From assembly GCF_900101625.1 (NCBI RefSeq), contig NZ_FMYZ01000001.1, positions 1,024,304 through 1,088,303 of the forward strand: a stretch of 64,000 bases of DNA, in the 5' to 3' direction. Position numbers and translations under genes: made by a program. Within the stretch, counting starts at the first letter, position 1. Every line of letters starts with the position of its first letter. This DNA is from Cupriavidus sp. YR651. GTDB lineage: Bacteria; Pseudomonadota; Gammaproteobacteria; Burkholderiales; Burkholderiaceae. Below are positions 37,400 to 45,776 of this stretch, piece by piece. The notes beneath the pieces are model-generated. The model was not told where the DNA came from and did no database searches. It worked only from the letters and a program-made list of their open reading frames with translations.

Positions 37400-39139
37400 T
37401 TATGGGCTGCTGCTCAGGTCGACGCAGCAGAGATTGCCTTCGCGGTGCACTTTGCCGGCGAAGGCCCCCGGGAAAATAGTGCACTGCGCAATCACTGCCT
37501 GCGAGCCCAGCCGTTTCAGGAGCCTGGGCAAAGCGTCGCCCTGGAGGTCAACCCCGAATCCGTGCTCGTAGAGGTAGTCAGACTGCAGGGGCTCGCGCAG
37601 GCCGTCGAATGCGAAGAAGGTGAGATTGTCCACTACAAGGTGGCGCGCACCGTCCCCACGAATGTGGCATTGCTCTGCAAAATCACGGATCCGGTCTCGC
37701 TGCCTGGCATACCCGAAAGAGGGAATTGAAAGACCCTGGTCCGGAAGGCCAATGTCCGCCGCATTGACCGAGCGAATGGTTTGCGGCAACACGTTGCCTA
37801 GTAGCAACGCAGAACTGCAAAGGAAAAGCATGTAGAAGGGCAAAGGCAGTAGCGCCATGGACGACTTGACGAGACGGGGCAAGCGATCACCACCCAACGT
37901 ACTCAATGCGGCCACGCAAAGCATGACCAGCAACGCCGCAATTGGCACCATCAAGGCGGCGCCGTAGAAATTCCACGCCTTGTACAGGGCCAGATGCCCA
38001 AGAAGCCCAATCCACAATGCGCTCAAACACCACGTCGCGCCGTCAAGCTTGCGCAGCAGGGCCTTGAGCAGGAAGACGGCCGGAGGGAGAAAGAACGCCA
38101 CCCGGAATACAAGTAGCGTCACATACTGGATGCCCTGGTTGATCCGGACGGCGACATCCCAGTTCCCCAGACCTGCCGACGGCGCCAGCCACGCTGATTG
38201 ATACTGGTCTGCGAACACCATGTGCCGAAGCATCGCCAACGGTGCAGCGTCGATGTTGTTGAACAATTCGACAACAAATGCCCTTGGCGAACTTACAAGG
38301 CCGCCCAAGGGCATGACGTTCGATGCAAGCAGCTTCGCCAATGCCGGAGCATCCCCGCACTTTGTCAGCAAGGCAGCGAACTGCAGGGTCTGCCACAGAC
38401 AGCCAATGGCAAATGCACTGACTATCGCGCACACAAGCTTGCTGCGCGAGCCGAGCAATGACCATGCAGAGATCAGGATCAACGGAGCAAAGAACAGGGC
38501 CTTGGGGTGCGTATAGCAGAAGATGCTCACCACTAAGCAGAATGCCGCGGCGAGAATCAGGAGACGCCAACTGTTCTCCCGGCCAATATCGCGTCGAAGA
38601 ACAACTGGGAACGCAAGAAACAGCGTGAGGAGTAAGAGCAGGATCTGCTCGCTACGCATCATCACCATCGTGAGCGGGAGCACTCCCAATCCGACGATCG
38701 ATGCGAGAGATGCCAGCATCGCGCAGCCCAGCCTCTGGGAGCGCACCTGCGCGATGATCAGCGCGCCCGCAGCGCCAAACCACAACAGAGCCGTCAAGAT
38801 ACCCGCCAAGCGGATAAACAGCGGGCCGGTCGCCAGCGAATAGACCAGATCATACGTGACAGCGCCGGGCACAAGCAGCGCCGGAACGCCCGAAAGGAAC
38901 TCAGGCCCACACTGCGGAAGCAAGGTATTCAGCTTCCAGCCGTTGGCAATGAACATCCCGCGCATGAAGATGGCGGCCACTTCGTCGCCATAGACCGGGA
39001 CGAAAACGCCAGCGACCAGAACGACAATCAGTGCGGCAATAATGATCCAGGCCACCAGGCATTGCCAGTAGCCCGTCCGCAGTGCCGGAAGGCCGCGGCG
39101 GCGGTCAATTACGATAGCGCGATCTGTTGAAGTATTCAT
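37400..39139 (-). CDS. Polytopic membrane protein, probable GT-C glycosyltransferase
   Basis: 579 residues from the ATG at 39139; a TTG 39 bases further upstream is possible. About 11 hydrophobic helices fill residues 25-450, followed by a soluble C-terminal domain of about 120 residues. The first periplasmic loop carries VPVYGDEVAAIFMRG, an acidic pair soon after helix 1, the position of the catalytic Asp/Glu in GT-C enzymes such as ArnT and PMT. That makes a lipid-phosphate-sugar-dependent periplasmic glycosyltransferase plausible, but sequence alone gives no named family. Last gene of the upstream half of the minus-strand block, 150 bp after the methyltransferase gene. Confidence 0.72.
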   Translation of the reverse strand: MNTSTDRAIVIDRRRGLPALRTGYWQCLVAWIIIAALIVVLVAGVFVPVYGDEVAAIFMRGMFIANGWKLNTLLPQCGPEFLSGVPALLVPGAVTYDLVYSLATGPLFIRLAGILTALLWFGAAGALIIAQVRSQRLGCAMLASLASIVGLGVLPLTMVMMRSEQILLLLLTLFLAFPVVLRRDIGRENSWRLLILAAAFCLVVSIFCYTHPKALFFAPLILISAWSLLGSRSKLVCAIVSAFAIGCLWQTLQFAALLTKCGDAPALAKLLASNVMPLGGLVSSPRAFVVELFNNIDAAPLAMLRHMVFADQYQSAWLAPSAGLGNWDVAVRINQGIQYVTLLVFRVAFFLPPAVFLLKALLRKLDGATWCLSALWIGLLGHLALYKAWNFYGAALMVPIAALLVMLCVAALSTLGGDRLPRLVKSSMALLPLPFYMLFLCSSALLLGNVLPQTIRSVNAADIGLPDQGLSIPSFGYARQRDRIRDFAEQCHIRGDGARHLVVDNLTFFAFDGLREPLQSDYLYEHGFGVDLQGDALPRLLKRLGSQAVIAQCTIFPGAFAGKVHREGNLCCVDLSSSP

Positions 39140-39289
39140 GAATGGATTTGCTGGCCGACTCCCGATTCGCCGGCGCAAAGAGTGTGTCCTGGGAGTACAA
39201 GGCCCGCGACCGTTCCTTCGGCGGAATGAAGGCGCCTCGCCCCCAGAGTCCGTCTTCCGGTACCGGTCAGAGCATTGAATCCAGCGAAT

Positions 39290-44147: not shown

Positions 44148-45081
44148 GGGCAGAGTTTCGGACGACATTGCGAACGATATAGAGGGGACGACGTTTGACT
44201 TCCTGGAAGATCTTGGCCACGTACAGGCCAATCACTCCCAGCACCAGAATCATCGTTCCACTGAGAAACCAGATCGACAGCATGAGCGAGGCAAACCCCG
44301 ACAAGACGGTCTCCGGTGCCAATACCTTGCGCACCAGCAACGCAATGCCGACACCAAGAGAACCAAGCCAGATCAGCAATCCCATAAGAAAGATTGCTGT
44401 CAATGGCGCGACACTGAATGAGGAAAACGAGTCTGCAACCTGCACCAGCTTGCGCGTCAGGCTGTAACTCGAAGCTTGCGACGTGGGCCGCTCGCTCTTC
44501 ACCAACAGCAGTTCCTCCTGCCTGAAACCGGTCCACGCAAATACGCCAGCAAGATAGAGCACGCGATCCTCAACTTGTAGCAAAGCGTCGACATACTCGC
44601 GAGTCATCAGGCGGCAGGTCATCGGATTGCGACCAATGCGTACTGTCGAGAAGGCATTCAGGGCACGCCAGAACAGCGCGCCAAACAAGTTCGACAAGAG
44701 GCCCGCGGTGCGCTCACGCTGCACACCGTAAACCACGTCTGCCCGGGTCCGGTCCATCTGTTGGGCAAACATCTCCAGCCATTCAGGTTGCTCTTCCAGG
44801 TCGGCGTCGATCAGGAAGACGCGCTCTCCACGTGCATGACTGAGACCCGCCACGATGGCTGCGTGATGACCGAAATTGCGCGACAGGTCGACGACCGATA
44901 CCCTGACATCCGCAGCAGCAAGCGCGCTGGCACGAGCGAGAGAATCGTCCGGCGAGCCGTCGTTGACGAAAACGATCTCGTAGTCATCTGCTATCTGGCT
45001 TGCGGCGGCCGTAACGCGTGCATACAACTGATCGATGAACGGCGCAGAGCGATATAGCGTGGAGACGATCGACAGCTTCAT
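44140..45081 (-). CDS. Glycosyltransferase family 2, GtrB/ArnC/DPM1-like
   Basis: 313 residues from the ATG at 45081, in an ATGA overlap with the WbqC-like gene; the frame opens further upstream inside it. GT-A fold: IVSTLYRSAPFIDQL, VFVNDGSPDDS, and the metal-binding LIDADLEEQPEWL at about residues 97-109. Two C-terminal membrane helices (about 235-260 and 268-292) end in the basic tail AKIFQEVKRRPLY. This layout is that of ArnC, GtrB and bacterial dolichol-phosphate-mannose synthase-like enzymes, which transfer a sugar to undecaprenyl phosphate with release of the nucleotide diphosphate. The predicted donor is a dTDP or UDP deoxy-amino sugar. Confidence 0.88.
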   Translation of the reverse strand: MKLSIVSTLYRSAPFIDQLYARVTAAASQIADDYEIVFVNDGSPDDSLARASALAAADVRVSVVDLSRNFGHHAAIVAGLSHARGERVFLIDADLEEQPEWLEMFAQQMDRTRADVVYGVQRERTAGLLSNLFGALFWRALNAFSTVRIGRNPMTCRLMTREYVDALLQVEDRVLYLAGVFAWTGFRQEELLLVKSERPTSQASSYSLTRKLVQVADSFSSFSVAPLTAIFLMGLLIWLGSLGVGIALLVRKVLAPETVLSGFASLMLSIWFLSGTMILVLGVIGLYVAKIFQEVKRRPLYIVRNVVRNSAHG

Positions 45082-45776
45082 TTGTTTACGTGCTTCAAAT
45101 AGCGCGGGGCATCTTGGCCGCAGTTGAAAATCAGATCGAGGACGCTGACGGCGTGCTCGAATTCTCCCCATAGCTGCGGATAAGGTTGGTAGCCCGAATA
45201 GTCGAACCAAGTGACCTTGATACCCCGCCGTTCAAACTGGGCGACATCCAGATAGTCTCGAGCCGCAGGTCCCGATACATACTCCGTTGCATTGGCCTGA
45301 GCGCAAATTTCCACAAGCCGCTCGGACCGGTCGCCGATCAGCTCATATTCCGTTGAATCGGTGAGCCGGGTATTGATGCCAAGCTCGGCACAACACCAAC
45401 CGAGCATGGAGCGGTTCAGCCCGGACAGGTGTGTCTGACTGGAGAGTTCGCAATAGAACGACTCCAGCCGCGGTGCGATCTGCCGGAAGCAAGGTGCCTG
45501 TCGGTAGTTTTGCAGGAGAACCTGCCAATGTGCACGAGCCCAATGCGCATCATCGATCTGCGTCTCGGCGATGGTCTGGCCAAACCGGCCGCCTGTCTTC
45601 ACCGGCACCGTCAGCCAGCGCAACCCTTGCGCGGTCTTGATCCGGTTACGATTGCGCCAGTCGTTCTTCGTGTACTGGACACTATCGTACAGGACGAACT
45701 CGTCGACCGACGCGATCATGTCGAAATAGCCCTTCCAAGGGATATAGTTCGACTGGACGATGGCAAGCTTTTTCAT
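45078..45776 (-). CDS. WbqC-like family protein
   Basis: 232 residues. KLAIVQSNYIPWKGYFDMIA at the start, FVLYDSVQYTKNDWRNRNRIK, and SEYVSGPAARDYL-like TEYVSGPAARDYLDV at about 165-180 are the diagnostic segments of the WbqC family (PF08889). The family is seen in O-antigen and other glycan clusters, commonly near DegT aminotransferases. Its reaction is, to my knowledge, not settled; a role in acylating an amino sugar is a guess from context. Cytoplasmic, no signal or membrane helix. Fifteen bp after rfbC. Confidence 0.88.
   Translation of the reverse strand: MKKLAIVQSNYIPWKGYFDMIASVDEFVLYDSVQYTKNDWRNRNRIKTAQGLRWLTVPVKTGGRFGQTIAETQIDDAHWARAHWQVLLQNYRQAPCFRQIAPRLESFYCELSSQTHLSGLNRSMLGWCCAELGINTRLTDSTEYELIGDRSERLVEICAQANATEYVSGPAARDYLDVAQFERRGIKVTWFDYSGYQPYPQLWGEFEHAVSVLDLIFNCGQDAPRYLKHVNK

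Follow-up and report, generated by a model that had tools for sequence, protein, structure and literature searches.

A candidate three-component glycosylation module with its own amino-sugar genes in Cupriavidus sp. YR651

We describe a gene run on the minus strand of Cupriavidus sp. YR651 (positions 37400 to 45776 of the window, by which we mean the whole 64,000-nucleotide stretch of contig NZ_FMYZ01000001.1 that was analysed) that probably encodes a three-component extracytoplasmic glycosylation module together with its own donor-synthesis genes. According to this reading, a glycosyltransferase of family 2 (GT2) would load an amino sugar on a lipid, a small membrane protein would flip it, and a polytopic protein of 579 residues would transfer it. 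The mechanism is of a known kind; its donor would be new, its candidate transferase belongs to a family that has no name, and its capping cassette is uncharacterised. An earlier note on this DNA had proposed an Arn/Gtr-like module inside an O-antigen block, built on dTDP-4-amino-4,6-dideoxygalactose (dTDP-Fuc4N). Every part that it listed is present in the run, and its family names agree with our Pfam and NCBIfam scans.

The gene run and its predicted pathway

In the order of transcription, the run comprises a WbqC-family protein (45078..45776; PF08889, 269 bits), the GT2 enzyme (44140..45087, with a longer start possible at 45210), the S-adenosylmethionine (SAM) methyltransferase MT2 (43425..44231; PF13489, 75.4 bits), an ATP-grasp ligase-like enzyme (42407..43384; NF009402, 218.9 bits against a cut-off of 218; PF15632, 47.4 bits; PDB 2pn1, 2.8e-6), a calcineurin-like phosphoesterase of the Metallophos_2 family (41740..42438; PF12850, 69.9 bits), a 125-residue EamA protein of the drug/metabolite transporter (DMT) type (41303..41680; EamA, 30.6 bits against a cut-off of 28.2), the aminotransferase WecE (40083..41228), the SAM methyltransferase MT1 (39290..40093; PF08241, 67.8 bits) and the 579-residue polytopic protein (37400..39139, with an alternative open reading frame (ORF) start at 39178). 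Immediately upstream on the same strand lie RmlB (48128..49333; TIGR01181, 500 bits against 365.1), RmlD (47212..48168; TIGR01214, 309.8 against 224.05), RmlA (46334..47215; TIGR01207, 504.5 against 360.65) and RmlC (45792..46337; TIGR01221, 246.6 against 155.75), each exceeding its TIGR equivalog cut-off.

The base sugar that the earlier note had named, dTDP-Fuc4N, is well supported at the family level. RmlA, which makes dTDP-glucose, and RmlB would supply dTDP-4-keto-6-deoxyglucose, and WecE (dTDP-4-dehydro-6-deoxyglucose 4-aminotransferase) would aminate it to dTDP-Fuc4N, the galacto product and not Qui4N being predicted from the family; the WecE assignment lies far over its cut-offs (NF008687, 607 bits against 375; TIGR02379, 629.6 against 434.85), and PDB entry 4piw is matched at 6e-149. 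The cap, a small carboxylic acid or an amino acid, would be made and joined to the 4-amino group by WbqC together with MT2, the phosphoesterase and the ATP-grasp enzyme, and MT1 probably methylates the sugar or the cap. The GT2 enzyme would transfer the capped sugar to polyprenyl phosphate, the DMT protein, or GtrA in some relatives, would flip the lipid-linked sugar, and the 579-residue protein, a candidate transferase with a GT-C (glycosyltransferase type C) fold, would attach it in the periplasm. The acceptor would here most likely be the O-antigen from the surrounding Wzx-type block.

In a PDB search, the solved structures closest to the GT2 enzyme are sll0501 (1.5e-51), a GtrB-type enzyme, and ArnC (2.8e-36). 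It is 30% identical to Escherichia coli YfdH (310 residues) and 28% identical to ArnC, and it ends in two hydrophobic segments; by family and topology it is a loader-type GT2 with C-terminal membrane helices, as in Gtr systems. The DMT protein, which is 40% identical to ArnE over 55 residues and gave no match at E 0.1 in a PDB search, corresponds by family to the small membrane flippase of such systems, as does the GtrA protein (PF04138) that stands at the equivalent slot in relatives. All NCBIfam Arn models were missed (ArnC, 130 against 529 bits; ArnE, 33 against 92; ArnF, 57 against 99). Because the scores lie far under the ArnC and ArnF cut-offs, we regard the two proteins as relatives of the Arn proteins and not as Arn proteins themselves. 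Moreover, contig C30 of the same genome carries a separate ArnC homologue (356 bits, also under the cut-off of 529) and, some 2.5 kb from it, a match to PMT, and therefore the set in the window is a second, different system. The Arn/Gtr likeness proposed earlier is largely borne out as an arrangement for loading, flipping and transfer; the set does not belong to Arn itself.

Co-occurrence of the parts in other genomes

Co-occurrence in other genomes had been set beforehand as a check on the proposal, and the genes do recur among phosphoesterase loci. When named genomes were searched with the alignment of the phosphoesterase, 136 relatives emerged, and our counts cover the best 80 of these, which are not a random sample. 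At the identity thresholds chosen, the ATP-grasp gene is present in 79 of the 80 loci, WbqC in 65, a gene resembling short-chain dehydrogenases/reductases (SDR) in 58, MT2 in 50, WecE (at least 55% identity) in 21, GT2 (at least 45%) in nine, DMT in seven and GtrA in five. All nine loci with such a close GT2 have a DMT or GtrA gene by tblastn, compared with three of the other 71 (L030 and L034, both on cut contigs, and L064, whose GT2s are more distant at 27 and 33% identity and which has several large polytopic proteins). The latter count becomes four of 71 when L052 is included, whose GtrA was shown by Pfam only, and it is a lower bound because tblastn missed that gene. WecE at 55% identity or above accompanies the close GT2 in eight of the nine loci, and a large polytopic protein lies close to the module in all nine. 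Since most of the arrangement recurs across other genomes, it is not due to chance. Locus L052 itself (5109-14813, Achromobacter sp. Root83) holds an aminotransferase (28% identical to WecE), WbqC, ATP-grasp, phosphoesterase, a GT2 of 32% identity and GtrA, as well as two polytopic proteins bearing a DEG motif.

The flippase gene lies on the same strand and at most 400 bp behind the phosphoesterase gene in 11 of the 12 tblastn-positive loci, DMT and GtrA alike; the exception is L079, with its GtrA elsewhere on the opposite strand. Among the nine loci with a close GT2, it directly follows the phosphoesterase gene in eight. Because either family sits directly behind the phosphoesterase, GtrA occupies the slot of the 125-residue protein of the window, and the exchange at this conserved position indirectly suggests that both proposed kinds of flippase share one job. 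The Pfam cut-off for GtrA is passed in all five GtrA loci found by tblastn (L016, L030, L031 with 48.9 bits, L063 and L079), and that for EamA in L026 from Pseudomonas sp. GM80, in L064 and in L066, as it is in the window. The arrangement of loader and small flippase that the earlier note had read from a single locus is therefore borne out by recurrence.

Close relatives of the ATP-grasp enzyme were found in four of 300 genomes of the order, host included, and the best lies on a contig of Neisseriaceae bacterium TC5R-5 (L009). Its locus L016 carries WbqC, GT2, MT2, ATP-grasp, phosphoesterase, MT1 and WecE at 52-73% identity to the window (52% for MT1), with GtrA in the DMT position, an additional SDR and two large polytopic proteins that have no significant similarity to that of the window. 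The flanking genes read as pst-type phosphate transport and molybdopterin-type genes, one being an ABC ATPase by Pfam, and no O-antigen block is visible around the module. The modules of the window and of L038 sit among O-antigen-type genes. Accordingly, the O-antigen setting described earlier is right for the window and does not extend to the module at large, which is not bound to O-antigen loci: L016 shows no such block, and the capping half also occurs beside flagellar genes.

Searches with the 579-residue polytopic protein found nothing in Pfam and NCBIfam at E 0.01 or in the PDB at E 1, and a profile of its family retrieved from the PDB only two chance-level matches at E 1.6. The protein has about nine hydrophobic segments, and the acidic pair noticed earlier is present as GDE directly past the first of them. 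Comparison of nine family sequences establishes D52, R110, R162, H211, D504 and four cysteines as invariant. D52 stands just after the first helix with E or D at position 53, as an acidic residue does in the first loop of GT-C enzymes, and hydropathy and the basic N-terminus suggest that it is extracytoplasmic. Relatives are present in three of 398 genomes of the phylum (host included), in one of 199 (genome G515 itself) and in five of 174 (genome G686 included), and in none of the 99 other genomes taxonomically near the window, 59 of which belong to the same genus; a protein scan of genome contigs with the 579-residue query returned 20 pattern matches and no relatives.

Eight relatives were fetched from eight loci in six genomes (L063, L097, L098 and L109-L113, where L110 and L111 share one genome and L109 and L113 another); L063 came from the phosphoesterase scan, and a family fragment in genome G954 was left out. 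A full-length ArnC/GtrB-type GT2 (26-59% identity) is found in six of the eight loci, which are all those with at least 14 kb of sequence, and the two loci without it are on contigs of 5 and 7 kb. If L063 is excluded, the counts are five of seven and five of five, respectively; in the comparison set, such a GT2 occurs in 17 of 79 phosphoesterase loci (L063 excluded). A DegT sugar aminotransferase accompanies it in five of the six loci (none lies in the 14 kb of L110): the enzyme is of the WecE type at 48-72% in L063, L098, L109 and L111, and in L097 it is 32% identical to WecE and stands beside FdtA (191.7 bits). A small flippase is present in two of the six, L063 and L097 (GtrA by Pfam). A protein of about 300 residues with a weak GH32-type Pfam match also recurs next to such amino-sugar loci (L097 3944-4855, L071 10627-11634, L098, L109 and L110); two were scanned, that of L071 scoring above the cut-off and that of L097 below it.

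The capping cassette and its flagellar branch

WbqC, a methyltransferase, the ATP-grasp enzyme, the phosphoesterase and often an SDR form a recurring, portable cassette. In its alignment, the phosphoesterase retains the metal-binding motifs that are usual for calcineurin-like enzymes. The AlphaFold model of WbqC has a predicted local distance difference test score (pLDDT) of 95.5; Foldseek found no PDB match to it at E 0.001, its best match, BshC (E 0.012, probability 0.90), is a hint only, and a WbqC profile search of the PDB gave nothing meaningful. The reaction of BshC adds cysteine to a conjugate of an amino sugar. ATP-dependent carboxylate-amine ligases are among the members of the ATP-grasp family (PMC5207246). 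Taken together, the evidence from WbqC, the phosphoesterase and the ATP-grasp enzyme makes it most likely that the cassette acylates or aminoacylates the 4-amino group, giving an N-acyl or aminoacyl cap, and WbqC is probably part of it. Of the 12 papers in which a full-text search found the word WbqC, none has a title that concerns its function.

Ten loci (L015, L017-L019, L021-L024, L027 and L032), nine labelled Pseudomonas and one Pantoea, share a single order of WbqC, a protein of 1,181-1,196 residues, MT2, SDR, ATP-grasp, phosphoesterase and WecE. The three that were opened have flagellar neighbours by Pfam (FlgE/F/G-type, rod-binding, FlgK and flagellin-type proteins in L015; FliD in L021 and L027), and the large protein of L015, the one scanned of the ten, has a Pfam GT2 domain. 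No DMT or GtrA flippase was found in the ten loci by tblastn. Judging from these neighbours, they are probable flagellin glycosylation islands. Because the capping genes occur both with and without the membrane module, the making of the donor is separable from its delivery. A wider proposition would be that one portable N-capping cassette acylates or aminoacylates dTDP-amino sugars for two outlets: a large transferase encoded in flagellar islands, or a polyprenyl-phosphate route whose flippases are interchangeable and whose transferases form a new GT-C family. WbqC would then be an amide former with a distant likeness to BshC. We offer this proposition tentatively, as a close call that leans slightly towards doubt.

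Alternative readings and comparison with known systems

That the 579-residue protein has a GT-C fold, as suggested earlier, is likely in our view; the invariant aspartate after the first transmembrane helix and the gene context favour it. An hhalign comparison of the nine-member family with 21 PMT_2/ArnT proteins is colinear at the N-terminus with the DE motif in register. Negative controls scored at most 18.7 for single sequences, 24.1 for a Wzy profile, 17.8 for MFS, 25.6 for reversed PMT and up to 27.2 for Wzy subsets.

Several observations weigh against the reading that we prefer. The hhalign match is weak (score 36.6, E 0.0023, probability 12.6%, 229 columns); PMT subsets of eight scored 18.9-34.8, three of the six falling under the best negative (27.2), and the single E. 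coli sequences of ArnT (21.1) and YfdI (18.0) did no better than the negatives. Because the subsets are unstable, the negatives close and the scores of ArnT and YfdI alone low, we put the fold no higher than likely. Neither Pfam nor NCBIfam gave a match of the protein to the PMT family of ArnT, and its AlphaFold model, built on a two-sequence alignment, has a pLDDT of 37.9 and is unusable for a fold search. The polytopic partners also vary by locus: 14 of them, including that of the window and the two of L052, form only three similar pairs (window-L063, L014-L031 and L016-L026), and a Pfam scan of 13 of the 14 (L026 3205-4494 left out) gave a single match above a cut-off, that of the L079 protein to DUF6044. 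An acidic pair (D-D or D-E) follows shortly past the first helix in seven of the 14 and is absent from the other seven, and the usual long first loop is lacking in L014 and L031. In addition, L098, L109, L110 and L111 showed no small flippase when searched by tblastn with a single DMT query and a single GtrA query, and this speaks against the 579-residue family having a fixed set of three parts; a crude ORF screen was likewise negative and is insensitive, since it missed known GtrA genes too. The DMT label itself is thin in L014, L025, L034 and L038, where matches to EamA, TMEM234 or Multi_Drug_Res stay below the cut-offs. Finally, the identity thresholds were chosen after the data had been seen, and the 80 loci were taken from the top of the 136. 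Our confidence in a three-component module is slightly lower on account of the weak DMT labels and of the four loci in which no flippase was detected.

The O-antigen block contains a second DegT aminotransferase besides WecE, two GT4 enzymes and one Wzx-type flippase, separate from the module (35753..37003, minus strand; PF01943/PF13440 over cut-off), which misses the equivalog cut-off of the enterobacterial common antigen flippase WzxE (173 against 325 bits). Genes at 24241-29881 (a FlaA1/PglF-type dehydratase, a DegT aminotransferase, a PglD-type transferase, an initiating sugar transferase and a GT4) look like a bacillosamine/QuiNAc4N-type start of an O-unit. Enzymes of the UDP-L-FucNAc type are present as well, with the WecB and WbcJ models over cut-off and FnlA under it (633.5 against 730), and a polytopic ORF without a Pfam match (33171-34547) is another polymerase candidate. 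GC content is 0.57-0.60 across 32-50 kb and 0.62-0.71 in nearly all the remaining window, with a second dip to 0.58 at 22-24 kb. Well away from the block, a protein of the Wzy_C/O-antigen ligase type (80.8 bits) is encoded at 10145-11446.

Within such a block, the capped Fuc4N could be an ordinary O-unit sugar that the GT2 enzyme adds in the cytoplasm from its nucleotide donor and Wzx flips with the whole unit, the 579-residue protein being a polymerase or unrelated. We consider this unlikely, in spite of the Wzx, the initiating transferase and the two GT4 enzymes nearby. WzxE, which the window Wzx resembles below the cut-off, flips a Fuc4NAc-containing unit; moreover, the ten flagellar-type loci pair the sugar genes with the protein of 1,181-1,196 residues and no flippase was found there, and four loci of the 579-residue family have a GT2 with the small flippase undetected. 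These points are countered by the nature of the GT2 enzyme, an ArnC/GtrB type with two C-terminal helices whose close relatives among the 80 loci always come with a small flippase, by the alternative polymerase candidate at 33171-34547, and by the L016 module, around which no O-antigen block is visible. That same module can also be cited for a sub-case of the preferred reading, not exclusive of it, in which loading, flipping and transfer are kept and the acceptor is lipid A, the core or a periplasmic protein. Lipid A is what ArnT and its relatives modify. Such an acceptor is nevertheless rather doubtful here, given that the modules of the window and L038 lie among O-antigen-type genes and that a partner varying by locus is expected if acceptors vary, as with the serotype-specific Gtr enzymes. 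It is hardly credible that a nucleotide-sugar cassette and unrelated transporters became neighbours by accident. O-antigen loci are mosaics, and the absence of the 579-residue protein from the 99 nearby genomes would agree with an accident; the recurring order and parts, the one slot for DMT and GtrA, and the GT2 near the 579-residue family contradict it.

If the three-component reading is true, lipid-linked periplasmic glycosylation would be widened from hexoses, pentoses and 4-amino-4-deoxyarabinose (Ara4N) to capped 4-amino-4,6-dideoxyhexoses, a candidate GT-C enzyme family without a Pfam match would gain a name, and WbqC would gain a testable role.

The earlier note knew of no described system with this exact parts list, and our literature searches, judged by their listings, agree with it. 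A close parallel to the capping genes is the type B flagellin glycan of Clostridium difficile, in which an ATP-grasp gene lies two genes from one for an FdtB-like DegT-type aminotransferase, and the ATP-grasp mutant lacks the terminal 3-amino-3-deoxyfucose (Fuc3N) that carries a taurine-alanine-glycine peptidyl amide (PMC5207245, PMC5207246). The closeness of ATP-grasp and DegT-type aminotransferase genes is shared with the window; the sugar there is Fuc3N, the glycan is attached to flagellin, and the relevant parts of these accounts name a FemAB-like acyltransferase gene and do not mention WbqC. In the pentofuranose systems of Citrobacter youngae O1/O2 (GT136), a polyprenyl-phosphate sugar synthase, a flippase and a GT-C enzyme add side sugars after polymerisation (PMC11127046). 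These systems also have three components, their flippase family varies among systems, and their transferase founded a new family. However, they use a furanose donor derived from phosphoribosyl pyrophosphate and a MATE flippase, and the parts of the account that bear on this comparison mention no capping cassette and an amino sugar only for ArnT (PMC11127046).

The Arn system (E. coli arnBCADTEF) shares with the window an aminotransferase, an ArnC-type GT2, an ArnE/F-type transporter and a polytopic protein. It differs in its sugar, UDP-Ara4N instead of dTDP-Fuc4N, and in having two transporter genes where the window has a single DMT gene, and the formylation and deformylation proteins ArnA and ArnD have no match among the ten window proteins scanned with Pfam and NCBIfam. 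Compared with the Gtr system (GtrA, GtrB and Gtr(type); E. coli yfdGHI), the 579-residue family scores no higher against YfdI than the negatives do, DMT replaces GtrA, and the window set brings its own amino-sugar and capping enzymes. In common with Gtr, it has a GT2 loader, a small flippase, which is GtrA itself in several relatives, and a polytopic protein that varies from locus to locus.

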